The translations under genes and the position numbers were made by a program. Below the pieces are notes generated by a model that did not search any database, had not been told where the DNA came from, and saw only the letters and a program-made list of their open reading frames with translations. From Arcobacter acticola (GTDB lineage Bacteria > Campylobacterota > Campylobacteria > Campylobacterales > Arcobacteraceae), in assembly GCF_013177675.1 (NCBI RefSeq), contig NZ_CP042652.1, positions 2,232,001 through 2,296,000 of the forward strand: a DNA stretch of 64,000 bases, written 5' to 3'. Every line of letters begins with the position of its first letter. Position 1 is the first letter of the stretch. Shown here one piece after another: positions 5,201 to 38,891 of the stretch.

Positions 5201-6691
5201 ATGAGTCAATCAATTTTTAGTCATATTCCTTGTGGACAAACATTACCTTTAAATAACATTCACGCAGTTTCTGTTTCTATGCCAGAACTTCAAGATGTTA
5301 TTGATTATGAAGAGCAAACACCAGAAATTTTAGAGAAAATAAAAAGTGCATATCCAAGATTTGTGATGCATCCATATTTAAAAATCCTAGCTTCTCATAT
5401 AAAAGAGAAATACAAAGTTTCAAATGCCTATGAAGTTGTACTTTTAAGCTCACAAAAAGCTGTTGATGTGGTAAGTAGCAAATATTTTATTCACAATAAA
5501 ATAGAAATAAATGAACCTTTTGGAGTGATTTTAGTTCAAAATGGAACAACACAACTACAAAAAGTTTTAAAGTTTATTCAACACGTTGGATATAACTTAT
5601 CTTCAAGACTAGCTCAAGATTATCTATTTGAAATTGGATTATTAAATAATATTCACCAAGAAGAACTTGAAAATAAAACTATTGCAAAAGAGATTGTTAT
5701 AAGTGAGTTAGCAAAGGCATATAAACAACCAAAACAAAATATCTGTTTAACACCATCTGGAATGAATGCAGTTTATTGTGCGCTAAAAGGATTAAAACCA
5801 ATCCAAGAGCGAAATGGCAAAAATAAACTAATTCAACTTGGATGGTTATACCTTGATACTATGAATATAGTTGAGCACTATTTTGATGAAAATAAAATCT
5901 TTTATGATATTAATAATCTTGATTTACTAGAAGAATATCTAAAAACAAATGGTCATACAATTTCAGCAATAATCACAGAAATTCCAACAAATCCCCTACT
6001 TCAAACGGTAGATTTAGTAAGATTAAAAGAGCTTTGTTTAAAATATAATATTGTTTTAGTAATAGATGCAACTTTTGCAACACCATACAATCTTGATTTA
6101 AAACCCTATGCAGATATTTATATAGAATCACTTACAAAGTTCGCTTGTGGGAATGCAGATGTTTTAATGGGTGCATTAATTTTAAATGAAAACTCAAAAA
6201 TCTCTATGATGTCTCAAGAGTTTTTCAAACACGCCGATGAGCCATATATCAAAGATATTCAAAGATTAGCTTTTCAAATAAAAGATTATGAAAAAAGAAT
6301 GAAAGTAATATCAAAAAATACAAAACTTCTAGTTGAGTATTTTAAAAAAGCACCTTTTATAGATGAGATTTTTTATTGTTTAAATCCAAAATATGCCTCA
6401 AACTATCAAAAACTAATGATTGATGAGAACTCTTTAACAGGTATTATTTCTGTGACATTTAAAAAAGATTTCAAAGAGATATATGACAAATTAAACTTTG
6501 CAAAAGGTCCTAGTTTGGGAACTGAATTTACACTTTTAATGCCTTATACTTATTTGGCACATTATGATTTGATTTTGACAAAAAGTGGAAATGAATTTTT
6601 AGAAAAAATTGGACTTCCAATAAATCTTCTTAGAATCTCTGTTGGATGTGAAGATATAAATGATATTATAAATGAGTTTGAGAGAGTTTGA
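5201..6691 (+). CDS. Second trans-sulfuration-family PLP enzyme with N-terminal extension, 496 aa
   Basis: This protein is about 100 residues longer than bacterial MetB/MetC. The first 170 residues have no recognisable PLP-fold motif. The fold then starts around CLTPSGMNAVYCALKGL, with the aspartate in LVIDATFATPYNLDL and the Schiff-base lysine K313 in ESLTKFACGNADV. The tail RISVGCEDINDIINEFERV is typical of the Cys/Met PLP family. The layout recalls long cystathionine gamma-synthase-like proteins carrying an N-terminal domain. Forming an operon with the preceding MetB-like gene, it may supply a consecutive or regulatory step in methionine/cysteine interconversion; the exact reaction is unknown. 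No strong Shine-Dalgarno is visible before the ATG, so translational coupling is likely. Confidence 0.8.
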   Translation: MSQSIFSHIPCGQTLPLNNIHAVSVSMPELQDVIDYEEQTPEILEKIKSAYPRFVMHPYLKILASHIKEKYKVSNAYEVVLLSSQKAVDVVSSKYFIHNKIEINEPFGVILVQNGTTQLQKVLKFIQHVGYNLSSRLAQDYLFEIGLLNNIHQEELENKTIAKEIVISELAKAYKQPKQNICLTPSGMNAVYCALKGLKPIQERNGKNKLIQLGWLYLDTMNIVEHYFDENKIFYDINNLDLLEEYLKTNGHTISAIITEIPTNPLLQTVDLVRLKELCLKYNIVLVIDATFATPYNLDLKPYADIYIESLTKFACGNADVLMGALILNENSKISMMSQEFFKHADEPYIKDIQRLAFQIKDYEKRMKVISKNTKLLVEYFKKAPFIDEIFYCLNPKYASNYQKLMIDENSLTGIISVTFKKDFKEIYDKLNFAKGPSLGTEFTLLMPYTYLAHYDLILTKSGNEFLEKIGLPINLLRISVGCEDINDIINEFERV

Positions 6692-6697
6692 CTAGAA

Positions 6698-6735
6698 AAT
6701 CCACAAGCTTTTTAAAACTTGTGGATTGTTTTTTA
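6698..6735. terminator. Bidirectional rho-independent terminator
   Basis: A 10-bp perfect stem (AATCCACAAG / CTTGTGGATT) with a 10-nt loop is followed by a T-run on the plus strand. It lies between the convergent PLP-enzyme operon and the type III restriction gene, and could serve both directions. Confidence 0.75.
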
Positions 6736-9636
6736 TAAGTCGAATAAATTCCCCGTAAATGTAGCTTCATTCATCTTTGCACTATTTGCCAAATCTTCAA
6801 TATCAGCTCCACTTTTTACTAGTGAGTAAAACTGCGTTTCACCTAAAAGTAAATAATTCCAAGTTTTAAACTCTCTTAAATCTTCACTTAAATTATTTAT
6901 CCTTTTTACAAAGTCTATTGTTGATTTTTGTTTTTGTTTTACATTGACATCTTTTAAATCTTTATCGGATTTTGTCTCCACTAAATATATATTTTTTTGC
7001 GTTTCTATCATAAAATCAGGATAATAACTAGCCATCAATCCATCATCTCTAAAGTAACTAATAGTTGCAAAATCGTGTTTGAACTCTAAAATTTTGATAA
7101 ATTTTAACACTTTGCTATCTTTATCCAAAAACTCTAAAAATGCTTTTTCAAATCCGCCTTTATTTGATGGATATGATGTTTTTTCATATATTGTTTTTTG
7201 TAAATCTAGCGAAAAATTTGCCCTCATATTTAAGCTACTAACTTTTGAAAAATATATTTTATTTACAAGTGGTTTTATATAAGTTGTACTATTTTGCATA
7301 TTGTAAATAAGTCTATTTATCTCATTTGTAATATGTGTTGTGATATTTGCATTTTTTAACATCAAAACTCGCCAACTCTCATCTAAAAAAGGATTAAACT
7401 CTTGTGCAAAAAGTTTGGTTCTTATATATTTATCCAAAACTCCTAAAAGTTGCGGTTGATATATTTGCATTGATGGTAAAGCTCGGTTATGTCCTCGTAA
7501 CTTTAACTGTCCCATTTTGTGGGTCAAAATCTCCAGTAATTTTTGCAAATATTCATTATAAGAGTTTGCACTAAACAAATCAGCACTGATACTATAATCT
7601 CCAAACGTTGTTTTAACAGTCAATTCTTCACTATGAAAAACTTCCCCTCTGACAGTCCATGATTTGAGTTGTTCTAAGCTATGATAAGTATAAGGTGGCA
7701 AATCATTTACATTTATATTTGGAGTGCTTAATTCTTCCTCTTCATCTTTTATAATCTCTAAAAAAGCCATATCAAAATCTTGATAATTCTCTTTTAGTCC
7801 TACTTTTATCATATCGCCTGTACTTGTTCCCTCAATTGGTTCATTTTCATCAAAACCAAATTCATCACTTGAAAGTAAATCACCATAAAACTGCGTAAAG
7901 GCAGGATGTTCAATGATACTTAAAACATCCAAATAAGAGCTAGGACTTAGTTTTTCTTTTAAAACTCTTTGTCTATTTTGTTGTTTTTCATCTTCAAATT
8001 CAGCTCCTCGATACATAAGTCGAAGCCCTCGACCAATAGTTTGTTCAAGTAAAATAGAAGATTGGTTTGACCTCAATGGCACTATCACACAAACATTTGA
8101 TACATCAAATCCCTCTTTTAACATCAAAACAGAAATTACAACTTTTGGATTTTCATAAACATCAAGATTAAAAAGTTTTTGTTTTAAACTAGCCCATTCA
8201 TCTTTTGCTATTTCTCCATTTTTTTTAGAATGAACACCCATAAATTCATCACTTTTAAGTCCAATTTCCACTAAAAAATCTTCTACAAATCTCACAACTT
8301 CTGTATCTTCACACATAATTAGCATTTTTGGATGTTTTGGATTGTCAAGTGTAGAAAAATCTTTTTCTAAAATATTTAGTTTTGTAAGTCCTGCTTGTAT
8401 CATGATTTTTTGACCATCACTTAGACCTATAACTTTATTTGAACCTTCATCTCTTAGGGCTTTAAAGTCTAACTCCAAAGTAGATAACTCTTTTCTTTTA
8501 TCAATGGTTATCATTTTTACTAAACCATCTTTTATGGCACTATTCAAATCAAAATCCACAACAACATGAGGGAAATAGTGTTTTGCCCTATTTTGCCCAC
8601 TTCCTGTAGTATCATAAGGCGTTGCTGAAAAATCTATTTGAATAAATTTAGTTCCCTTATTTTTGGCTATAAAATTCAAAGATTTTTGCCATTCTACCTC
8701 TTGAATTTCCCCTGCTGTTTTATTTTCATGGATATGATGTGCTTCATCATTCATAACAACTAAATCATCTAGCCCAGCTAAGTATTCTATTTCACCACCA
8801 CTAAAATAAGCATTATCAAGAGTTTCAAGACTATTTCCTGCACTTATTCCAGGACGTGCTGGAAAAATATCAGCTATCACACCGCTTGGGTCATCAAGTG
8901 GGCTTATCTCTTGGGCTTCTTCTTTTCCCATAAACAAATGCCAATTTGAAATAGCCAACATCCCATCACTTGTGATTTTTTTGCCTATTTCATCTTTGTT
9001 TACTACACTTGAAGATAAAAAAGCTTTGATTGTCATCTCATATTTTTGTGATACAAAAAGCTCTTTATTTTTGAAAATATCACTTGTATTTACATCTCTA
9101 CTTCCATCAACTCCCTGTTTTCCCATATAACTATCAAGCAATCTTTCATATACTATAAGCCCTGGAGCTATAAGCAAAAAGTTTTTTGAGTATCTTCCGC
9201 TTTTTTCTTTTTCAGCTCTTGCATTTAGATATTGCCAAATAAAAAGTGCATTCATAACCCAAGTTTTACCTGTACCTGTTGCCATTTTCATAGCGTATTT
9301 TGGGATATTGTATTTCTCTTTAGTTAAAAATTCAAAGTTTAGTTTTAAGATAAGTTCTTTGTCGCATTTTTCATAAATCTCTAAAACAGAGTTTATTTTG
9401 AGTATCTCATGTAGATAAATAGTATTTAAAATAGCTTGTTTTTGCCCTCTATGAAAATTTATTTCTCGTTGTGTTGTGTGAGGTTCACAAAACCAAAATT
9501 TTAATAAATCAGCACTTACAGGAGTAACAAGAGTTAGAAACTCTCCACTTTCCCAAAGTTCATTTACTATTTTTGAGATACTAAGAGCAAGTTTTAAAGG
9601 TATTTCACCTGTTAGAGTATTTATAGGCATAGGCAT
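6733..9636 (-). CDS. res: Type III restriction enzyme Res subunit, 967 aa
   Basis: ATP-dependent restriction subunit. An SF2 helicase core is complete: Q-like region with HRGQKQAI (about residue 63), Walker A MATGTGKTWV (about 118-127), DEAH in VVMNDEAHHIH (about 298), SAT in DFSATPYDTTG (about 334) and motif VI TIGRGLRLM (about 535). The C-terminus carries a PD-(D/E)xK-type nuclease motif, YYPDFMIE (about 868) with YLVETKSDK (about 885). It overlaps the upstream methyltransferase unit closely: the ATG lies 1 bp past the mod stop, and its GAGGAG ribosome-binding site is inside the end of mod. It needs the Mod subunit for site recognition. No frameshift is seen, so the enzyme appears functional. 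Confidence 0.92.
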   Translation of the reverse strand: MPMPINTLTGEIPLKLALSISKIVNELWESGEFLTLVTPVSADLLKFWFCEPHTTQREINFHRGQKQAILNTIYLHEILKINSVLEIYEKCDKELILKLNFEFLTKEKYNIPKYAMKMATGTGKTWVMNALFIWQYLNARAEKEKSGRYSKNFLLIAPGLIVYERLLDSYMGKQGVDGSRDVNTSDIFKNKELFVSQKYEMTIKAFLSSSVVNKDEIGKKITSDGMLAISNWHLFMGKEEAQEISPLDDPSGVIADIFPARPGISAGNSLETLDNAYFSGGEIEYLAGLDDLVVMNDEAHHIHENKTAGEIQEVEWQKSLNFIAKNKGTKFIQIDFSATPYDTTGSGQNRAKHYFPHVVVDFDLNSAIKDGLVKMITIDKRKELSTLELDFKALRDEGSNKVIGLSDGQKIMIQAGLTKLNILEKDFSTLDNPKHPKMLIMCEDTEVVRFVEDFLVEIGLKSDEFMGVHSKKNGEIAKDEWASLKQKLFNLDVYENPKVVISVLMLKEGFDVSNVCVIVPLRSNQSSILLEQTIGRGLRLMYRGAEFEDEKQQNRQRVLKEKLSPSSYLDVLSIIEHPAFTQFYGDLLSSDEFGFDENEPIEGTSTGDMIKVGLKENYQDFDMAFLEIIKDEEEELSTPNINVNDLPPYTYHSLEQLKSWTVRGEVFHSEELTVKTTFGDYSISADLFSANSYNEYLQKLLEILTHKMGQLKLRGHNRALPSMQIYQPQLLGVLDKYIRTKLFAQEFNPFLDESWRVLMLKNANITTHITNEINRLIYNMQNSTTYIKPLVNKIYFSKVSSLNMRANFSLDLQKTIYEKTSYPSNKGGFEKAFLEFLDKDSKVLKFIKILEFKHDFATISYFRDDGLMASYYPDFMIETQKNIYLVETKSDKDLKDVNVKQKQKSTIDFVKRINNLSEDLREFKTWNYLLLGETQFYSLVKSGADIEDLANSAKMNEATFTGNLFDL

Positions 9637-9637
9637 T

Positions 9638-11533
9638 TTATATCTCCTCTTTTACCATAGATTCAAAACCAAAAACATCAACAGCCTTAATACAAACAAC
9701 TCTTTTATCTTTTTTTGGAACCATTATTTTAGCACTATAAATCACATGAAGTGGATCACCATCATTTGCAGTATTTTCCCTATAATCTTGCCATTTACTC
9801 CTAAAAGTAACCCCGTCAAAATCAGGGTCAATACTCCAATACTCAATAAGTGCAAGAGGGTCTGTAGCCATAAGTTGTTGAAGAGATTTTTTATCATTTT
9901 CATCAAGGGGAATATTATCAGGACTTAAAAGAATATAGTTATCAAGTTTGATTATTAACTCTTCAATAGTATCATCATAAACTGTTTTTTCTATTGGTTT
10001 TATAGTTAAATATTGAAGTGAGCTAAATCTAATTTTTCCACTATCTACAAGTTTTTTATATGTGGCTTTTGATTTTAGTTTGTCAAGTAAATCAGGAGGT
10101 ATAACTAAAACTTCAAGTTTAGAGTCATTTAGTTCATTTATAGCACTACTTATATCATAGGCAAAATTCCATCCTAAAACTACAACTTTTTCCCAACCAC
10201 CCAAAAAGTTATCTCTAAATTCAATAGCTTTTTTCAAAGTAGCAAATCCAGTGAGGCGACTAGGACTATCTATAAAAACCAAAGTTTTTTTATCTTTGAT
10301 ATATCCCAAATTTCGTGGATGTTCATCTCCAAATCCCAAAGCACCAGAGCCACTATCATCACTAAAAAGTGAAATCACAACTTGTGATAAATCTCCGATT
10401 CGTTTATAAAGTTTGCTAGACTCAAATGCTTCTTTTTGATAATCGCCGATAGATTGATATAAAAATGGTTTCACTTCATTGTCAATCAGCCTTTTTCTTT
10501 GCACCATAATAGATGGTTTTCCAATATCACTACTTATCCATCTTCTGCCTAACTTTTCAGCAACCGATGCAGTTGTACCACTTCCTCCAAAGAAGTCAGC
10601 TACTATTGAATTTTCGTTTGATGATGCTTTGATAATTTTTTCTAATAATTTTTCTGGTTTTTGAGTTGAGTAATCTACTTTTTCTTTAGCCATACCATTT
10701 ATAGTTGCAATGTACCAAACATCAGTTGGTAAAGCTAATTCACTATCCCCTCTACCTTTATTTCCATCTGTGATTAATGCACCTTTATATTTTAATCTGT
10801 TTGCAGTTGCATCACTTATTTGTCGCTCTTCTAAAACTTCTTGTGCATTAAATATTATATTATCAGTATTTTTAGAATACATAAAAATATTATCGTGTTT
10901 TCTATTCCATCTGCTATCTGTTCTAATTCCCCAAGAATAATTCCAAATAATTTCATTCACAAAATTATTCTTTCCAAAAATATCATCAAGTAGAATTTTC
11001 ACATAATGCCCAACATGCCAATCAATATGCACATATATTGAGCCTTTTTCACTCAAAAGTTCTCTCATAAGTGCAAGTCGTGGATATATCATTTTAAGAT
11101 AACTAACCGTTCCATCTTTCCAAGTATCAGCATAGGCAAACTGCTCTATTACAGTTGGTTTTTGATTTAGATTTACATTTGGTAAAGTGATTTTTGTCCG
11201 ATAATCAGCCTTTGAGTCAAAAGGTGGGTCAATATAGATTAAGTCTATTTTTCCTCTCATACTCTTTAACCCACTTGCACTATCTCCCGCAAGAAGTCCT
11301 TGCATCACCAAAATATTATCCCCATAAATCAGCCTATTTTTCCACTCTTCATTTTCATCAACAGATGGAACCTCTCCACGATAAAGTCCGCTTATATCTT
11401 TTGAGGGTAAAACTAACTCATTGGTTTGTAAAGCCAAAGCATTTCCACTATTGATTCGTTCAAGTATTCGAGCAACTTCTGCCCGACCCTCTTTTACTAT
11501 TTTTGGTAACTCTTCTATTAATGATAAAGGCAT
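9638..11533 (-). CDS. mod: Type III DNA methyltransferase Mod subunit, 631 aa
   Basis: Adenine-specific methyltransferase and specificity subunit. Motif IV is DPPF in [13 protein letters not shown] (about residue 101) and the AdoMet-binding motif I is [16 protein letters not shown] (about 315-330). The order IV then I is that of the beta class, as in type III Mod proteins. The region between (about 170-300) is the likely target-recognition domain, and the C-terminal 280 residues probably contact Res. It is the first gene of a two-gene operon with res. No simple-sequence repeat tract is visible in the coding region, so there is no sign of phase variation. Its promoter region is shared with a small divergent HTH gene. 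Confidence 0.92.
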
Positions 11534-11690: not shown

Positions 11691-11879
11691 ATGACACAAA
11701 GAGATATGGCAGGATTATTAAAAATTACCCCAATGACTTTAAGAAACTGGAAAAAAGAAAAACCAAAACTGTACGAAATAATAATGAAAGGCTTCGCATT
11801 TGAAGATGCCGTGAAAAAAGCTCAACAAAATGCCGATGAACTGAAAGCTTTAGAAGAAGAGTTTAAAACCAAGAAGTAA
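11691..11879 (+). CDS. Small HTH DNA-binding protein, 62 aa
   Basis: A helix-turn-helix occupies nearly the first half (TQRDMAGLLKITPMTLRNW, residues 2-20), followed by a charged helical tail rich in Lys and Glu. It has the size of a small regulator or adaptor. It is transcribed divergently from the mod-res operon, with an inverted repeat in between, so it may regulate restriction-modification expression in the way controller (C) proteins do. It lacks any clear C-protein family motif, so the role is inferred. Separated by 91 bp from the next plus-strand gene, which has its own -10 box. Confidence 0.65.
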   Translation: MTQRDMAGLLKITPMTLRNWKKEKPKLYEIIMKGFAFEDAVKKAQQNADELKALEEEFKTKK

Positions 11880-11937
11880 ATATTTATCCAAAACATTGCA
11901 ATTTGACATATTCTTTTGCTTTTATTATTTTTGGTGG

Positions 11938-11943
11938 TATAAT
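11938..11943 (+). promoter_or_regulatory. -10 box for the three-gene cassette
   Basis: TGG-TATAAT lies 27 bp before the ATG at 11971. It falls downstream of an alternative in-frame TTG at 11896, which argues that translation starts at 11971. The only TTGACA upstream is spaced too far for a normal -35. Confidence 0.45.
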
Positions 11944-11970
11944 TTAAGAAAATTCATTAGGAAATATTCA

Positions 11971-12690
11971 ATGATATGGGTCAATATTCTATTTCTAATA
12001 TTAGTATCTTCTCTACTCTTGAGTGATTTAACTTTTTTAAAAATCATTAATTCATCAAATATTATAACTGTTGTAACTGCATTTGCTGGTGCATTATCTG
12101 GTGCATGGGGAGCATATAAACTACAAATAAATAAAGAAAACAAAAAAGAAGAAAAACAAAAAATTAATTCACTTAATAAAGCATTATTTATTTTATTAAG
12201 GCAAATTAATGCAATGACAATGTTTAAAATTGATTTAGAAAAAGTAAAAGAAAAAGAACCTATCGTAAGAGCATTTCAAATACAAGCATGGAAAACAAAT
12301 CCATATAATGATTTAAAATTTAACTTTGAAGAACTATCTTTTATTTTAGATACCGAAGATTTAAATTTATTACATGAACTCTTTATCGTGCAAGAAAGTT
12401 TTGAACAAGCCATAGAAACAATAAATCAAAGGTCAATTTACTTTATCAATAAAGTCACTCCTGAGATGGAGTTAAAAGATATTGATAATAAAAAATTTAC
12501 ATTAGATGAATTAAAAACTGAAATGGATATTAATAAAATAAATGGATTAGTTTCAGGAACAGATTATATGTATATACATGTATATAGAACATATCAACAA
12601 TTAGAAGATGTAACATCAAAATTATTTAACTTTGCAAAATCACAATATCCAGATAAAAAATTTATTCAATTTGAAAAGAGTATATCGTGA
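11971..12690 (+). CDS. Membrane-anchored protein of unknown function (cassette gene A), 239 aa
   Basis: Two N-terminal membrane segments (about residues 2-22 and 31-49) are followed by a cytoplasmic, mostly alpha-helical domain of about 190 residues with a charged coiled-coil-like start (KENKKEEKQKINSLNKAL). No enzymatic motif is recognised. The ATG at 11971 is chosen because an AGGAAA ribosome-binding site precedes it and the nearest -10 box is just upstream. The gene overlaps the next by 4 bp (stop and GTG start share bases), which indicates translational coupling. It lies between a type III restriction system and a toxin-antitoxin module, so a defence role is possible but unproven. Confidence 0.7.
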   Translation: MIWVNILFLILVSSLLLSDLTFLKIINSSNIITVVTAFAGALSGAWGAYKLQINKENKKEEKQKINSLNKALFILLRQINAMTMFKIDLEKVKEKEPIVRAFQIQAWKTNPYNDLKFNFEELSFILDTEDLNLLHELFIVQESFEQAIETINQRSIYFINKVTPEMELKDIDNKKFTLDELKTEMDINKINGLVSGTDYMYIHVYRTYQQLEDVTSKLFNFAKSQYPDKKFIQFEKSIS

Positions 12691-13769
12691 TTGAAAATGT
12701 GTTTAAACTTTACTACACTGATAAAATAGACCTGTTTTCCAAAATAATTGAAAGTAGTATATTTGAGAGTATTTTCTTATCAATCATCGCTGCTGTAATT
12801 TTTAACCATATATTTGTAACCATACCATTTAATAAAAGAAAAAATAAACTCAGACCAATTATTGAAACTGATATGAGTTCTATATATTTTAATTTAACTA
12901 TTACTTTTGATCTCATTTTTAGACATTACGAAAAATCACCTTCTTATTATCAAGATAAAATGAGAGGAAATCAGCTATCAAAAAAAGATTTTAATATAGC
13001 TTTACAAAATAAGGTTTCAAATAATAATTTTTTACTCGATAAAAATTTGGCTCCATACATGATGATAATAGGGGATAAGCTAGAAGGTCATTTAAACAAA
13101 ATTAATGCTTTACTACAACATATTATTTCGCTTTATGATTATTGTTCAGTTGATGAAATTTTATTATTGAATAAATTAAGACAACAAATTGAAAAAATAC
13201 AATTGGATAAAACTCCACTATTTATCAATTATGAAAATAATAAAGTATTGCCAATACCATATTCTCTTGAATCTCAAACAAATAACTTTTATCAACTATA
13301 CTTATTATACATTGAATTAGTTACAACAATTATTTATACACATAAATTACTAGAAAAACTTAACTTTCAAAATAAGATAGTTTGCTTTTATTTTAGTAAA
13401 AATTATAAAATGTGTAAAAAAACTATTCAAGATTATAAAAGGAATTACCCAAATATGGATAGTACCTTTTTAGATTTATATCTTGCAAAATGTGAACTAA
13501 AATTAAATAATAATCAGAAATTTAAAAACTTAATATCTAGTGTAATCAAACAAAAACCTGAATTAATAGGACATAGATATATTTATGAAGAAATACTAAA
13601 TATTGATATTGTCAATAATTTACTAAAAAAATATTATTCAGATGAAGAAATCAAAAGATTAAATGATACTTTGGTAGAAGAAAAAACTCAAAAAGAAAAC
13701 TTTGAAAACCAAAATAAAAGCTTATATAAATATTTTCATCATAATAAAGAATACTCATTTAAAGAATGA
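12687..13769 (+). CDS. Membrane-anchored protein of unknown function (cassette gene B), 360 aa
   Basis: It starts with GTG, overlapping the end of gene A by 4 bp. One hydrophobic segment (about residues 25-47, IFESIFLSIIAAVIFNHIFV) should anchor the protein. The rest is a long helical cytoplasmic region; residues about 235-300 (NYKMCKKTIQDYKRNYP... DLYLAKCELKLNNNQKF) look like tetratricopeptide-like helix pairs. The C-terminal 40 residues are highly charged. No catalytic motif is seen. Codon use is very A/T-rich, like genes A and C, and the three appear to be one operon. Confidence 0.68.
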   Translation: MIENVFKLYYTDKIDLFSKIIESSIFESIFLSIIAAVIFNHIFVTIPFNKRKNKLRPIIETDMSSIYFNLTITFDLIFRHYEKSPSYYQDKMRGNQLSKKDFNIALQNKVSNNNFLLDKNLAPYMMIIGDKLEGHLNKINALLQHIISLYDYCSVDEILLLNKLRQQIEKIQLDKTPLFINYENNKVLPIPYSLESQTNNFYQLYLLYIELVTTIIYTHKLLEKLNFQNKIVCFYFSKNYKMCKKTIQDYKRNYPNMDSTFLDLYLAKCELKLNNNQKFKNLISSVIKQKPELIGHRYIYEEILNIDIVNNLLKKYYSDEEIKRLNDTLVEEKTQKENFENQNKSLYKYFHHNKEYSFKE

Positions 13770-13776
13770 CTTAAAA

Positions 13777-14649
13777 ATGGAAAGACTAGTAAATATTTTT
13801 GAGATAGAAAAAAACAATTTAATAACAGAAAATTTTGAATTAGAATATAAACTTAAAGAACTTGAGCAAACTATTGAGTATGCTAAATTTAGATGTTTAC
13901 CTACTTCTAAACTAATTGAAGAACTATCCAATTATCAAATAGACACTTTTGTAGAAAATTATTTTTACAGATTAAATGAGTTGAAATTAACAGTTAAAGA
14001 TTGTAATTTACTTATAGATTCTATAGATAAACTTATAAATAAATATACAAATTTAACGACTAAAGATAAAATAAAATTTGAAAATTTTATTAGACGATTA
14101 ATTGTATATCTACCATCACATCTAAGACATAAATATTTTGATATTTTTATAAATTCGACAAGAAAATCAGGAAGAAAAATTGCATATAAATCCATTTGTA
14201 AAGACTTGCTTACAAAAAATCAAATAAATTTACTTTTAGAATTATATTTAAAAAAAAGAGAAGAAGAATCTCTCAAATCAATTATTTTTTCTTCTGTAAA
14301 ACTTGATTTAGAAATTATTATATCTATTCTTGAAAAAACAGACAATAAATACTGGAAAGCAAGATTAATCCAAAATCTTATTCTCAATGAACAAAATGAA
14401 GTTTTAAAAATATATTCAATGTATCCATTTGAATTTGTACATGCAGTAGGCAGAATCGGTAATAAAAAATATATCAAAGTGATTAAAGAATTATTTGAAG
14501 AAAATAAAAATGATTTTGATTTTTTGTCAATTTATGCCTATTCATTAGGAAAACTGGGTGCAAAAAAAGAATTAAATAACCTTAGCAAATATATTAAAAC
14601 AAAAGGCAAGGCTTTAAATTGTCCCCAAGGGACGAGCAAAGAAGTCTAA
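13777..14649 (+). CDS. Helical-repeat (HEAT-like) protein (cassette gene C), 290 aa
   Basis: The ATG at 13777, 7 bp after the stop of gene B, is preferred over a TTG at 13702 inside gene B. The protein starts with a coiled-coil-like helix (KNNLITENFELEYKLKELEQ) and continues as repeated amphipathic helix pairs, of which FDFLSIYAYSLGKLGAKKEL near the C-terminus is the clearest HEAT-like unit. Such proteins usually act as scaffolds. The last dozen residues (KALNCPQGTSKEV) are encoded by a locally more GC-rich, hairpin-forming stretch unlike the rest of the gene, so the natural C-terminus may have been replaced by a dispersed element. Function unknown. Confidence 0.65.
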   Translation: MERLVNIFEIEKNNLITENFELEYKLKELEQTIEYAKFRCLPTSKLIEELSNYQIDTFVENYFYRLNELKLTVKDCNLLIDSIDKLINKYTNLTTKDKIKFENFIRRLIVYLPSHLRHKYFDIFINSTRKSGRKIAYKSICKDLLTKNQINLLLELYLKKREEESLKSIIFSSVKLDLEIIISILEKTDNKYWKARLIQNLILNEQNEVLKIYSMYPFEFVHAVGRIGNKKYIKVIKELFEENKNDFDFLSIYAYSLGKLGAKKELNNLSKYIKTKGKALNCPQGTSKEV

Positions 14650-14654
14650 ACTTC
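14621..14654. repeat. Two tandem hairpins, possible dispersed repeat element
   Basis: GTCCC-CAA-GGGAC (14621-14633) is followed after 7 bp by GAAGT-CTAA-ACTTC (14641-14654). Both are perfect stems and sit in a stretch of higher GC than the surroundings, spanning the stop codon of the helical-repeat gene. It resembles a REP-like or element-end sequence. No second copy occurs in this window. Confidence 0.4.
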
Positions 14655-14693
14655 CAGCCCAAATACTTAAAAATATTATAGGAAAATTTATCT

Positions 14694-14720
14694 AAAATCA
14701 CACAAACCCAATCTTTTTAG
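14694..14720. repeat. Tail repeat copy 1 (short)
   Basis: The 19-bp core AAAATCACACAAACCCAAT is shared exactly with copy 3 (16309) and differs at two positions from copy 2 (15307). On the minus strand it reads as the end of an open frame (KKIGFV-stop). It lies immediately 3' of the toxin-antitoxin operon. Confidence 0.6.
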
Positions 14721-14727
14721 AAAAAAA

Positions 14728-15012
14728 CTAAATTAATTTTTCCATATATTTGTTTATACCGATGATAATAATTTGATTTTTAGCAGTATCAATCTTATAA
14801 GGTACTACATATCCTTTAAAGATAAGATCTCTTATGTTGTTATTATTGAAGTAGATTGATTTTCTATATTTAAAAGGCATATTTGGAATATCATCTATAA
14901 TTTCATCCAACTCTACTTGAAATTTTATAGCCAGATTCACACTATCTTGTGCTATAAATTCCATGATAGATTGAAGTTTTTGAAGATAACTAATATCCCT
15001 AATTATTTGCAT
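14728..15012 (-). CDS. RelE/ParE-type toxin, 94 aa
   Basis: The length and pattern fit the RelE/ParE superfamily: an N-terminal two-helix region (YLQKLQSIMEFIAQDSVNLA), the mid-region PFKYRKSIYFNNNNIRDLIFKGY with basic residues, then VVPYKIDTAKNQIIIIGI, matching the usual 'Y-x-V-x-Y-x-I' core strands. It overlaps the upstream antitoxin gene by 14 bp, the common arrangement with antitoxin first. Whether it cleaves mRNA (RelE) or poisons gyrase (ParE) cannot be told from sequence. Confidence 0.85.
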   Translation of the reverse strand: MQIIRDISYLQKLQSIMEFIAQDSVNLAIKFQVELDEIIDDIPNMPFKYRKSIYFNNNNIRDLIFKGYVVPYKIDTAKNQIIIIGINKYMEKLI

Positions 15013-15265
15013 ATTTAGACTTGAGATTTTTCTTGAAGTTATTCATTTGATTTGTGTATTGTTCTTCTGATAGTAGCTGAGTATTACCATTTTCTATATT
15101 TTCTAAAGATTTCTGAAAATAGATTTTTGTTTGTTCAAAATCATCAACTACGAAATCTTCTTCTTTTACTGCAAGATTTTTAACCATACCCTTTTTTAGA
15201 CTTTTAATAATAGTTAAAAATGACTCATAGTTATCATCTTCTACTTGAAGCTGTATAGTTTTCAT
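14999..15265 (-). CDS. Antitoxin partner of the RelE/ParE toxin, 88 aa
   Basis: This is the first gene of the pair, with an AGAGGTAG ribosome-binding site. It is acidic and mostly helical (MKTIQLQVEDDNYESFLTIIKSLKKGM at the start, a long charged C-terminal half). It has no strong HTH or ribbon-helix-helix signature by eye, although the N-terminal strand followed by a helix could form a dimeric DNA-binding unit. The identification as antitoxin rests on order, overlap and size. Confidence 0.8.
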   Translation of the reverse strand: MKTIQLQVEDDNYESFLTIIKSLKKGMVKNLAVKEEDFVVDDFEQTKIYFQKSLENIENGNTQLLSEEQYTNQMNNFKKNLKSKYANN

Positions 15266-15306: not shown

Positions 15307-15355
15307 AAAATCACATAAACTCAATTTTCTCAATCCCCTCTTTTACTTCATTTTA
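15307..15355. repeat. Tail repeat copy 2
   Basis: A 49-bp block identical to copy 3 (16309-16357) at 42 positions, all seven differences being transitions. Similarity continues about 10 bp to the left with one gap. On the minus strand it encodes NEVKEGIEKIEFM-stop, in a frame shifted by -1 relative to the ORF6N gene that ends at its edge. It lies 3' of the ORF6N gene and upstream of the antitoxin gene. Confidence 0.7.
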
Positions 15356-16262
15356 GCTTCTCTAAAACTTCCAAAGCTTCCATCTCAAACTTTGAAAAAG
15401 CAAACCATTTTTTGCCCAAGTCTTTAAGACTAGCTCCAACATGATAAATCTCTTTTTTATCAATAATAAGAAATCTATCATGAGCTTTTTTGAACTCTTT
15501 TAGTTCTATATTTTTATATTGAGAGCTATATTTTTGAAAGTCTAGATTCAACTGTTTTGAGATACTTTGGGTATATATTTTTATTTGCAAATTTTGATAT
15601 TTGCTGAAAAGTGTAAATACTGTATCATTGATATAATTATCTATTAGCAATACTTCACTTTTTGCACTTTTAAGTAAATCATTTATAAAAGCATAAGCAT
15701 CATAAATCTGTCCGTCATAAAATATCCCTTCACTAGGTTTTTGAGTTTTGTTTTCTAGTGCATTTAAAACTTGTTCTATTTTTGCATCTGTTTTAAGTTG
15801 ATAATAGATTTGTTGTTTTTCTAAAGTTTCTATCCTAGCGTATATTAAATTATTTGAATTGATGAGTTTTCGCATATTTACAAAAGCTCTCATAATATTT
15901 ATATGTATTTCTATAGCAATTTTACTTGTTAGCACAGTAGATAAAGAAGATACACCTTGCTCTGTAAAAACAAATGGTTTAGCTCCTCCAAAAGATTTTT
16001 TTGATGGTATCACAGATTGTGATACCAAGAAATCAATCTCCTCATCGTTTAGTTCAAACATAAAGTCATTGGGAAATCTATCAATATTCCTTTTTACCGC
16101 TTGTTTTAATGCTCTTGTTTCAACTTGATAAAGTACTGCTAAATCTCTATCAAGCATCACTTGAAATCCACGGATAGTGTAGATTTTATCTTGTAGGTTT
16201 TGTATATTTATTGTTGTTATTTGATTCATCTCTAAGTCCCAACTATTTATTTTTTTAATCAT
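15348..16262 (-). CDS. ORF6N-domain protein with PLD-like C-terminal domain, 304 aa
   Basis: The N-terminal half is an ORF6N DNA-binding domain as found in phage and island proteins (YTIRGFQVMLDRDLAVLYQV, RNIDRFPNDFMFEL, FVFTEQGVSSLSTVL). A helical linker follows (about residues 135-180). The C-terminal 120 residues have IDNYINDTVFTLF and HDRFLIIDKKEIYHVGAS, a single phospholipase-D-like half-site (H-x-[RK]-x4-D type) also present in the next gene upstream. Start choice is uncertain: the ATG at 16262 lacks a clear ribosome-binding site and an internal ATG at 16229 is possible. A regulator or nuclease-like effector of mobile origin is likely; the role is unknown. Confidence 0.8.
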   Translation of the reverse strand: MIKKINSWDLEMNQITTINIQNLQDKIYTIRGFQVMLDRDLAVLYQVETRALKQAVKRNIDRFPNDFMFELNDEEIDFLVSQSVIPSKKSFGGAKPFVFTEQGVSSLSTVLTSKIAIEIHINIMRAFVNMRKLINSNNLIYARIETLEKQQIYYQLKTDAKIEQVLNALENKTQKPSEGIFYDGQIYDAYAFINDLLKSAKSEVLLIDNYINDTVFTLFSKYQNLQIKIYTQSISKQLNLDFQKYSSQYKNIELKEFKKAHDRFLIIDKKEIYHVGASLKDLGKKWFAFSKFEMEALEVLEKLK

Positions 16263-16263
16263 A

Positions 16264-17208
16264 TCAAATGAATCTATTTTGATTTAAAAATATGACATTT
16301 TGCAATACAAAATCACACAAACCCAATTTTCTTAATCTCTTCTTTTGCTTCATCTTAAATATTTTATATATTAACAAATCCTTTACAGAAATATTCATCT
16401 TATTTACTGCAAATACTTTATTTCCCAAATCCTTGAAACTTGCTCCAAAATGATATACAATTTCATCACAAATCAAAAATCTATCATGAAAATTTTTAGT
16501 GATTTTTGCTTCAAGATTGGAATATTGTTTGTTATATTTTTGAATATCAAGTTGTAGTTCTTTAGAAATATTTTGAGTATAAATAGTAAATTTTACATTT
16601 TGATTTTTTGAAAATAGGTTTAATATAGATTCATTTATGTAATTATCAATTAAAATAATTGAAACTTTTGCACTTTTTATTAAATCTGATAAAAATACAT
16701 AAGCATCAAATATTTGTCCGTTGAAAAATATTCCGTGTTTGATTTCTATTGTATTATTTTTGATATGGGATTTAATAATTTGAATATCATTTTCAAGAAT
16801 AGTTAATCTTTGTTCTGTGATTTTATGAGTATTGATAGCATAACCATTTTGGATGTAGTTTTTAAGTACAGAAGTTGCCCATTGTCTAAAATGGATAGCT
16901 TTATTAGAACTTGTTCTATAACCTACTGCTAAAACAATATCTAAATTATAATACTTAATATCTCTTGTTTGTGTTTTATCTGATAGTGAACCATGTTTTG
17001 TGGTATGTGCAAAATTTGCACATACCACTTTTTCATCTAATTCATTATCTTTAAAAATATTTTTAATATGTTTTGATACAACACTTCTATCTATATCAAA
17101 AACTTTTGCAATATCATTGGTACTAGCCCAAATAGTATCCTTATCGGCAGATATTTTTAACTCTATCTCACCATTTTCATAGACTACTATATCTGATATT
17201 GTATCCAT
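16264..17208 (-). CDS. RhuM-like protein with PLD-like C-terminal domain, 314 aa
   Basis: The N-terminal 130 residues match RhuM-family proteins (TIWASTNDIAKVFDIDRSVV, HGSLSDKTQTRDIKYYNLD, AIHFRQWATSVLKNYIQNGY). The C-terminal domain is homologous to that of the neighbouring ORF6N protein (IDNYINESILNLFSKNQNV, HDRFLICDEIVYHFGAS). An AGGAG ribosome-binding site precedes the ATG. The last 30 or so residues (from KMKQKKRLRKLG on) are read through a copy of the tail repeat in a shifted frame and are basic, so the natural C-terminus was probably shorter. RhuM-type genes are frequent inside restriction and defence loci; the molecular role is unclear. Confidence 0.8.
   Translation of the reverse strand: MDTISDIVVYENGEIELKISADKDTIWASTNDIAKVFDIDRSVVSKHIKNIFKDNELDEKVVCANFAHTTKHGSLSDKTQTRDIKYYNLDIVLAVGYRTSSNKAIHFRQWATSVLKNYIQNGYAINTHKITEQRLTILENDIQIIKSHIKNNTIEIKHGIFFNGQIFDAYVFLSDLIKSAKVSIILIDNYINESILNLFSKNQNVKFTIYTQNISKELQLDIQKYNKQYSNLEAKITKNFHDRFLICDEIVYHFGASFKDLGNKVFAVNKMNISVKDLLIYKIFKMKQKKRLRKLGLCDFVLQNVIFLNQNRFI
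16309..16357. repeat. Tail repeat copy 3
   Basis: A 49-bp block matching copy 2 (42 of 49 positions). On the minus strand it encodes DEAKEEIKKIGFV-stop in the -1 frame relative to the RhuM-like gene, which reads through it. It separates the RhuM-like and ORF6N genes. Confidence 0.7.
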
Positions 17209-17302
17209 GTTTAATACTCCTAAATTTTATACGTACAAAACAATAACATAAAATTTTATTTTTATTAAAAAACATAACAAATTGCAATGTTTACAAAACA
17301 AA

Positions 17303-17328
17303 AAAGCCCCACCAAAAGGTGAGGCTTT
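17303..17328. terminator. Hairpin terminator
   Basis: AAAGCCCCACC-AAAA-GGTGAGGCTTT forms an 11-bp stem with one mismatch, flanked by A-tracts on the left that become a T-run on the minus strand. It probably ends transcripts of the oxidase operon that pass the first hairpin at 17368. Confidence 0.65.
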
Positions 17329-17367
17329 AAAATATCTATAATTAAAACTTAAAATCTCTTCTAAAAA

Positions 17368-17392
17368 TGCCAAAGAGAATATCTCTTTGGCA
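17368..17392. terminator. Perfect hairpin 3' of the oxidase operon
   Basis: TGCCAAAGAGA-ATA-TCTCTTTGGCA is a perfect 11-bp stem with a 3-nt loop, 18 bp after the last gene of the oxidase operon. A T-rich stretch follows on the minus strand (TTTTTAGAAG), so it may terminate transcription or stabilise the 3' end. Confidence 0.65.
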
Positions 17393-17409
17393 TATAACTT
17401 TAATAAAAA

Positions 17410-37579: not shown

Positions 37580-38891
37580 AAATTGAAAATATTCATAAAA
37601 TCACTGATGATGTATACTTTGCAATAAAGCGACAAAACCCTTTATGTAAGGCTTTTTGTAGGACTTTTTAGCTAAAATATCTATATAAATATAGGTACAA
37701 AGGTTAAAAAATGGCAGGACTATTTGACTACGAATTTCAATTGGAAAAAATCAATAAACATCAACCACCGCTACAAAAACTAAACAAGATTATTGATTGG
37801 GAGATGTTTAGAGAAACAATTGAATCAGCTTTAGAAAAAGAGGATAGAAAGTCAAATGCAGGAAGAAAGCCATACGATAAATTGCTAATGTTTAAAATTT
37901 TAATACTTCAACGATATTATAATCTTTCAGATGAACAAACAGAATTTCAGATCAAAGATAGATTATCATTTTTAGATTTTTTAGGATTGCAAATCGGTGA
38001 TGATGTACCAGATGAAAAGACTATATGGTTGTTTAAAGAGCAACTAAAAGAGAAAGGTTTATCCAAAAAATTATTTGAACTATTTACCTCTAAACTTATC
38101 TCAAATGGAATAGTTGCCAAAGAGGGGACAATCGTTGATGCTTCATTTGTAAATGTACCCAAACAAAGAAATACAAGAGATGAAAATAAACAAATCAAAG
38201 AGGATAAAATGCCACAAAGCTTTGAAGACAATCCAAATAAAAAAGCTCAAAAAGATTGTGATGCAAGATGGACAACAAAAGGAGGTCAAAGAGAATATGG
38301 ATATAAAGATCATGTAGCCTCAGATCAGAAAACTAAAATTATCACTAAATATGAAGTGACGCCAGCTTCAACCCATGATTCACAAGTGGTTAAAGATTTG
38401 ATAGATGGAGATGATAATACCCTCTATGCTGATAGTGCTTATAAATCTGAAGAGACTGAGCAATATCTCGAAAGTAAAAATGTGAAATCAAAAGTTATCA
38501 AAAGAGCCTACAGAAACAAACCCTTAACCAATGCCCAGCATAAAGAAAATTATAAACACTCTAAAACAAGAGTAAGAGTTGAACATATATTTGGAACACT
38601 TACAACTCAAATGCATAATGCACTTAATCTTCTCTCAATTGGAATAGATAGGATAAAGTCCACAATAGGACTTACGAACCTTACCTACAACTTAGTCAGA
38701 TACGAACAGATGGTTAGATTACAAAAGGTAAAATTGATATGAAAAGAGTTGGGAAATGGATGAAATATCCAAAATATTAGGGTGATTTCCACAAAATTCT
38801 TAGTAAAGTTCAGTTAGAATTGGGCTGAGATTTTTTAAAAATCAAAAAAAGTAAAAGTTGGGAGCTTTAAAAGGTATTTTTAGAGGTTCCC
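37548..38891 (+). mobile_element. IS5-family insertion sequence, 1344 bp
   Basis: One transposase gene inside terminal inverted repeats: left GGGCACCTCTAAAAAT, right (reverse complement) GGGAACCTCTAAAAAT, 15 of 16 matching. The size and DDE transposase fit the IS5 family. The flanks (TTAA on the left, ATAT on the right) show no matching target duplication, which indicates that one side was lost by deletion or recombination after insertion. Confidence 0.88.
37711..38742 (+). CDS. IS5-family DDE transposase, 343 aa
   Basis: An intact transposase. An N-terminal helical region (SNAGRKPYDKLLMFKILILQRYYNLSDEQTEFQ) is followed by the DDE core: first Asp in GTIVDASFV (about 153), second in LYADSAYKS (about 242), and Glu in RVRVEHIFGTL (about 294). 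The Y-x-x-K-like element and terminal TYNLVRYEQ are typical. A promoter-like region and ATG with AAGGTTAAAA precede it. No frameshift is seen, so the element could still be active. Confidence 0.93.
   Translation: MAGLFDYEFQLEKINKHQPPLQKLNKIIDWEMFRETIESALEKEDRKSNAGRKPYDKLLMFKILILQRYYNLSDEQTEFQIKDRLSFLDFLGLQIGDDVPDEKTIWLFKEQLKEKGLSKKLFELFTSKLISNGIVAKEGTIVDASFVNVPKQRNTRDENKQIKEDKMPQSFEDNPNKKAQKDCDARWTTKGGQREYGYKDHVASDQKTKIITKYEVTPASTHDSQVVKDLIDGDDNTLYADSAYKSEETEQYLESKNVKSKVIKRAYRNKPLTNAQHKENYKHSKTRVRVEHIFGTLTTQMHNALNLLSIGIDRIKSTIGLTNLTYNLVRYEQMVRLQKVKLI

Follow-up and report, generated by a model that had tools for sequence, protein, structure and literature searches.

We analyzed a 64,000-nt stretch of Arcobacter acticola DNA (accession no. 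NZ_CP042652.1, positions 2,232,001 to 2,296,000; hereafter the window), in which three adjacent genes, designated A, B and C, occupy a slot within an island of type III restriction-modification (RM) genes. The borders and the promoter of this slot recur in four other islands, where they enclose cargo unrelated to A and C, and gene B is separable from its two neighbors. We lean slightly towards a combined reading, based on sequence comparison, in which A, B and C would be cargo carried in the exchange slot of a mobile type III RM island, with a role as accessory genes of abortive-type defense. The slot part of this reading, taken alone, is much firmer.

Borders, contents and mobility of the slot

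The five islands compared are those of the window and of four loci designated L004, L115, L117 and L148 (further loci are numbered in the same manner). The methyltransferase (Mod), restriction subunit (Res) and small helix-turn-helix (HTH) protein of the latter four are 81-86% identical to those of the window: 81-83% for Mod, 81% for HTH (in L004, the second of two HTH genes) and 83-86% for Res (in L004 over 787 aa, the contig being cut). All four display the trait of a variable defense hotspot, i.e. conserved flanks with unrelated cargo. An all-against-all comparison (phmmer) of 11 cargo and neighbor proteins gave a single pair at E values up to 1, namely B of the window and B of L004. This is the only cargo shared, and the cargo of the other islands is otherwise unrelated to A or C; A showed no relationship to the L115 cargo at the level of detection.

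The borders were located by blastn. On the left, homology to the window stops at position 11967 (L117) or 11966 (L148), 3-4 nt ahead of the ATG of A. On the right, it restarts at 14573 in L115, L117 and L148, inside the last codons of C, and at 14615 in L004, behind a PemK-like gene. The same stretch does not code in the other islands, where it forms the border, and C therefore takes its residues 266-290, or a minimum of 275-290, from border sequence. Neither this location of the end of C nor the HTH gene (11691-11879) appeared in a preliminary description of this DNA. The slot promoter was recognizable in 5 of 5 islands. Its operator pattern has no differences in the window, L117 and L148, and three in L115; the operator of L004 exceeds three differences, yet retains ATTGCAAT, CATATTATT and GTATAAT.

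The left boundary of the slot is made up of mod, the gene of the 62-aa HTH protein and the operator-promoter; at its right end stands a terminator/hairpin border, beyond which lie the ParDE-like and ORF6N/RhuM genes (Table 1). Exchange of the cargo would occur via recombination in the shared borders, presumably homologous recombination.

Table 1. Positions of the island genes, slot borders and border elements, and cargo of the five islands.
Feature	Position	Strand	Remarks
Res, type III restriction subunit, left flank	6733..9636	-	Pfam ResIII 2.1e-12
Mod, type III methyltransferase, left flank	9638..11533	-	PADLOC MTase_III 1.7e-76; Pfam N6_N4_Mtase 1.7e-44
HTH protein, 62 aa, divergent from Mod	11691..11879	+	Pfam HTH matches under cut-off only
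Slot operator-promoter and left border (AAAYATTGCAATTTGNCATATT ... GGTATAAT)	11880..11967	+	alignment of window, L117, L115 and L004; L148 copy
A	11971..12690	+	239 aa; N-terminal membrane segment; no family
B	12687..13769	+	360 aa; membrane anchor 28-46; no family; separable component
C	13777..14649	+	290 aa; alphaRep/HEAT-like stretch 218-276; C-terminal 16-25 residues from right border
Right slot border	14573..14720	+	two-hairpin element 14618-14669, then AAAATCACACAAACCCAATC; blastn against L115, L117, L148 and L004
ParE-like toxin	14728..15012	-	Pfam ParE_toxin 2.2e-8
Small partner of ParE-like toxin, right flank	14999..15265	-	78% identity in L115; 76% over 62 aa in L148
ORF6N protein, right flank	15348..16262	-	Pfam ORF6N 5.2e-32; PADLOC PDC-S05 6.3e-114; 46-48% identity in L115 and L148
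RhuM-family protein, right flank	16264..17208	-	Pfam Virulence_RhuM 1.1e-19; PADLOC PDC-S05 1.2e-91
Second slot-operator copy, upstream of RhuM gene	17271..17292	-	2 window matches against a mean of 0.22 expected
Cargo, window			A-B-C
Cargo, L115			198 aa with two membrane segments, perhaps plus 58-aa ORF
Cargo, L117			249 aa plus 410-aa protein with membrane segment
Cargo, L148			504 aa, TPR-like by eye, no membrane segment
Cargo, L004			PemK-like gene, second HTH, B, HEPN-like ORF
Two-hairpin element	window 14618-14669; L004 5174-5223; L128 9068-9115; L129 9214-9263; L130 6583-6630; L115 1206-1254; L148 9515-9565

The preliminary description had placed the three genes between a type III restriction system and a toxin-antitoxin pair, and this was borne out, with Mod and Res on one side and the ParE-like toxin with its small partner on the other. 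The partner gave no Pfam match above the cut-off, and ParD is the name given to it here. On the far side of the slot, L115 and L148 carry relatives of ORF6N and ParD (L115 also a KilA-N gene, 4.3e-22) and L117 carries ORF6N fragments; the L004 contig ends before that region. In L004, the HTH gene beside Mod is a more distant copy, the 81% identical one stands before B, and the PemK-like gene (match 1.4e-8) lies between them. The 504-aa cargo protein of L148 has a weak PADLOC match, PDC-M71B (2e-5, 54 residues).

The place of the island was inspected in 12 of 30 genus-mates, using 16-kb or 15-kb stretches around a MetB2-like gene. No island was found at this place in any of the 12 (Mod, Res, HTH, ORF6N, RhuM and ParD/E sought at E 1e-4). 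In the closest of them (L131), the MetB2-like gene adjoins an acetyltransferase-like gene that in the window lies past the cyd genes, and in L140 and L141 cydAB-like genes are present there without the island (all names by eye). The genes outside the islands also differ among the window, L115, L117 and L148 (by eye), i.e. the chromosomal position is not fixed. These differing surroundings, together with the absence from the 12 genus-mates, lead us to infer that whole islands move and that cargo moves inside them. A search for Mod in 49 genomes of the genus of L115 found three, those of L115, L148 (80%) and L149 (43%).

The 62-aa HTH protein is probably the regulator of the slot. HTH matches occur in 52 of 218 genomes of the order; no relatives were found in plasmids or viral contigs. 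We took 17 places from that listing, in 14 of which the HTH was labeled by ORF picking. Of the 17, L115, L117 and L123 adjoin the type III Mod/Res described here, L113, L122 and L124 adjoin weaker Mod relatives with no Res match alongside, and the other 11 have neither. At L114 (6851-7744), the same small HTH stands upstream of an apparent antitoxin-toxin pair (by eye), and it may head other cargo in the order. At L111 (7045-7587) and L112 (5831-6388), it precedes a 180-185-aa protein with two membrane segments, with no RM genes adjacent.

The number of operator copies in the window, two, was reached in 4 of 100 dinucleotide shuffles. Copies also precede ORF6N in L115 (position 1794) and L148 (8996). 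A scan permitting up to three differences gave scattered other matches (e.g. window 62478, L111, L130, L140, L141, L147), compared with 0.4 per mononucleotide shuffle. The presence of the operator at both the cargo and the RhuM promoters suggests that these share one mode of control, in which the small HTH protein may be the regulator.

Genes A, B and C and the separability of B

Direct reading of the ORFs confirmed the gene coordinates given earlier, the 4-nt overlap of A and B (GTGA, 12687-12690), the 7-nt spacing between B and C (13770-13776) and the -10 box, a TATAAT sequence (TGGTATAAT) that begins at 11938, upstream of A. The ATG of A, at 11971, is preceded by AGGAAA.

Translational coupling and a single promoter would be expected if A, B and C formed an obligate three-protein membrane complex, i.e. 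an undescribed defense system inserted as a unit. The insert covers these three genes, and a combination of two membrane-anchored proteins with a repeat protein is plausible. We nevertheless consider this explanation unlikely, because (i) neither A nor C accompanies B in either of the other places where it was found, (ii) in L004 B lies directly behind the slot promoter, with a different partner, and (iii) the end of C is border sequence.

The two relatives of B were found in L004, a contig of a Sulfurimonas sp. metagenome-assembled genome (71% identity over 343 codons), and in L036, the Pseudomonas aeruginosa plasmid NZ_CP095924.1 (33% identity over 353 columns). Neither is accompanied by A or C in the sequence examined; the L004 contig stops 569 bp past B, and another ORF already stands 3' of B there. 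The residues KLRPIIE, located behind the membrane segment of B, are invariant in the three related sequences. The preliminary description had treated the three genes as one candidate system, to be refuted by homologs that mostly stand apart; those of B (2 of 2) do stand apart from A and C. A conserved three-protein system is therefore unsupported, and the persistence of B in these two places marks it as a separable component. What stands of the earlier suggestion of a candidate undescribed system is the defense-type setting (type III RM, PDC-S05 genes, toxin-antitoxin) and the fact that the genes fill a variable slot.

The ORF that follows B in L004 matches the PADLOC candidate PDC-S64 (4.2e-17), with Pfam HEPN_Apea under the cut-off. 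This HEPN-like ORF (6614-7157) appears frame-broken near its start, owing either to a genuine lesion or to faulty assembly. The ORF upstream of B in the Pseudomonas plasmid contains an RxxxxH motif (by eye) and has no Pfam match above the cut-off; at the level of detection, it is unrelated to the HEPN-like ORF of L004. It was considered as a remnant of A, and this was rejected, as no similarity to A was detectable. A blastn match to L004 that runs past the stop codon of B to 13856 was taken as over-extension in AT-rich sequence.

Between the window and L004, dS is 0.88 for B, 1.95 for Mod and 1.48 for HTH. The lower value for B than for Mod fits a later movement of B, but the larger values approach saturation, which weakens this point in favor of moving cargo.

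Relatives of the three genes are otherwise scarce. No clear homolog of A or C was found among 348 genomes of the order. Besides its own genome, A gave one match (E 0.0099), and C gave 13 partial ones (E 2.1e-4 or worse, 8 of them with internal stops). B matched only itself among 31 genomes of the genus, and a three-row B profile run against 346 genomes of the order recovered B and six partial, weak matches (E 6.4e-4 or worse, three with internal stops). All of these matches other than the genes themselves were taken as noise. No relatives were found in plasmids, phages or viral contigs for A, in plasmids or viral contigs for C, or in phages or viral contigs for B.

This scarcity for A and C, together with the termination of C in border sequence, could point to a decaying recombination remnant without present function. 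Such a view is very improbable. The three frames are intact and much longer than expected by chance (239, 360 and 290 aa, versus 147 aa for the longest stop-to-stop frame when this 2.8-kb region was resampled 1000 times with a first-order Markov model), B and its L004 relative show a dN/dS of about 0.20 (Nei-Gojobori), indicative of purifying selection, and A retains its promoter and ribosome site.

Membrane segments were predicted with the Kyte-Doolittle scale (limit 1.6). The earlier prediction of two membrane-anchored products agrees with this analysis: A has a clear segment at residues 2-20 and a borderline one from residue 31 (1.44), and B has a clear segment at residues 28-46. No segment above the limit was found in C (maximum 1.46). 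Because basic stretches follow the anchors of A and B (by eye), the positive-inside rule places the remainder of both proteins in the cytoplasm. C had been described as made of helix pairs. Its residues 218-276 match designed alphaRep chains (phmmer, 3.3e-6), which lends this prediction weak support, and the Pfam HEAT_2 match (E 0.18) is under the cut-off. AlphaFold2 yielded low-confidence models of A and B (mean pLDDT 40.4 and 39.7, respectively).

None of the three proteins belongs to a curated family above the cut-offs of Pfam, PADLOC, NCBIfam or PHROGs, and A and B are mutually unrelated at the level of detection. The match of A to phrog_21267 (9.5e-8) was rejected as an identification, since this is a family of unknown function; its profile gave, in 248 genomes, one partial match with a stop besides A.

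Putative role of the cargo and comparison with known systems

Since the related islands keep their restriction enzymes and borders and carry different, partly membrane-bound genes, accessory anti-virus genes are more probable than one conserved machine. A and B would reside in the inner membrane, their C-terminal parts facing the cytoplasm, and could form a second, abortive-type line of defense if restriction fails, e.g. by membrane damage or growth arrest. C may be a helical-repeat adaptor or sensor.

Several observations weigh against this combined reading of a mobile island with defensive cargo. PADLOC-DB 2.0.0 gave no usable match (A, none; B, CARF_TM, E 0.26; C, AriA, E 0.037). Four of the proteins encoded in the slots are without a membrane segment above the limit, namely C, the PemK-like protein, and the 249-aa and 504-aa proteins of L117 and L148, respectively. 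The left end of homology is blurred in the two remaining islands, lying at 12170 in L115 and, in L004, at 11973 (first HTH) or 12007 (second HTH). C may be truncated by the border, and the set could therefore be partly decayed. The distant island L123 (Mod 66%; Mod/Res/HTH 54-66%) has the HTH, but the 8 kb inspected there contain no slot cargo and no ORF6N; close to the Mod of L149 (43%), no HTH was labeled. Finally, the plasmid relative of B sits among recombinase and transposase genes of a conjugative Pseudomonas plasmid, and no recognized defense system was seen in the 25 kb inspected.

The toxin-like genes of the slots and borders, i.e. the PemK-like gene and HEPN-like ORF of L004 and the ParE-like gene of the window, would also suit a cargo that acts as an addiction or toxin-antitoxin-like module, stabilizing the island with defense as a side effect. 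In our estimation this is distinctly unlikely, as A, B and C bear no toxin or antitoxin signature in the four family databases searched and are large compared with classical pairs.

The arrangement resembles the core defense hotspots cDHS1 and cDHS2 of Pseudomonas aeruginosa, in which conserved flanks surround highly variable defense genes and recombination in the flanks is likewise proposed (PMC10250203). In contrast to those hotspots, reported there from the same chromosomal region in all isolates, the surroundings of the islands vary, and the flanks are themselves of a defense type (type III RM, HTH, ParDE-like, ORF6N/RhuM). In epsilonproteobacteria, ApeA HEPN genes have been described as embedded in RM operons, and RhuM as tied to RM loci (PMC3710099). 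The islands share with these multilevel loci the association of RM genes with RhuM-like and HEPN-like genes; A/B-like membrane proteins, an exchange slot and border elements are not met in the excerpted text of that account (PMC3710099). BrxR/WYL regulators, which are DNA-binding and co-localize with defense islands (PMC9122601), provide a parallel for a predicted DNA-binding regulator within a defense-type island. The putative regulator of the slot differs in being an HTH protein of 62 aa, for which Pfam shows no WYL match and whose role and binding site are predictions.

Variable defense cargo between conserved flanks is thus of a known kind, and type III RM flanks with shared module borders appear to be a new form of it, as far as literature titles and abstracts show. 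No published report of this island or slot was found in a literature search by titles and abstract openings. With the slot defined, its contents can be collected from other genomes, which offers a guided route to new defense genes. B, rather than the trio, is the unit of first interest.

The two-hairpin border element and PemK-like genes

The right border contains a folded element, whose core TTGYCCCCAAGGGRCGAGCAAAGA occurs, with up to four differences, in 10 copies in 8 of 41 sources (583,602 bases; L128-L130 had been chosen because the element is present there) and in none of three mononucleotide shuffles. In a DNA search of 348 genomes, six had a match at E 0.001, including the native genome, which has one strong copy; two of the six matches were short and partial. 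The core was not found in viral contigs.

When seven two-hairpin copies were aligned, and the structure drawn from these same rows, 62 of 62 cells held standard pairs and 4 of 10 pairs were changed on both sides, compared with at most 58% for slid versions. None of 500 shuffled controls reached the pairing or the covariation score; 29 of the 500 reached the count of doubly changed pairs. Three shorter copies at cargo borders (L115, L117, L148), in which the second hairpin is absent and for which model R1 gives 26-38 bits, were left out of this alignment. No Rfam match was found over the element (14618-14669); the Rfam matches obtained all stayed under the gathering scores, with 17283-17399 as the best (E 0.0013).

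In L004, L128 and L130, a PemK-like gene ends 4-9 nt before the element, and in L129 the two overlap at the end of the ORF. This link is biased by the choice of loci, as no search was made for PemK-like genes that lack the element. Homology among these four loci begins -5 to +21 nt from the gene start and ends -4 to +35 nt from the end of the element. A recombination site and an RNA partner for the PemK-like toxin are both conceivable roles of the element, and a folded border without an Rfam match could explain the movement or regulation of modules. A gene with a folded 3' element in unrelated places (the PemK-like gene, four loci) resembles the gene cassettes of integrons. It differs from these in that no integrase was seen in the island, though no search aimed at integrases was made.

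A broader scheme would be a cassette economy, in which defense modules framed by the shared 5' operator-promoter and the 3' two-hairpin element would be placed beside type III RM, BREX and other loci. A-B-C would then be cargo encoding a new membrane-bound abortive system with B as its core, and the 3' element perhaps a recombination site or regulatory RNA, e.g. the partner of a PemK-like toxin. We regard this scheme as speculative and rather improbable.

In L128 (8654-9058), the PemK-like gene with its 3' element is located between brxC and pglX, in a BREX locus that also contains two RhuM-like genes. A transposase-like ORF (by eye) is present in the window at 37711-38742, approximately 20 kb from the island.

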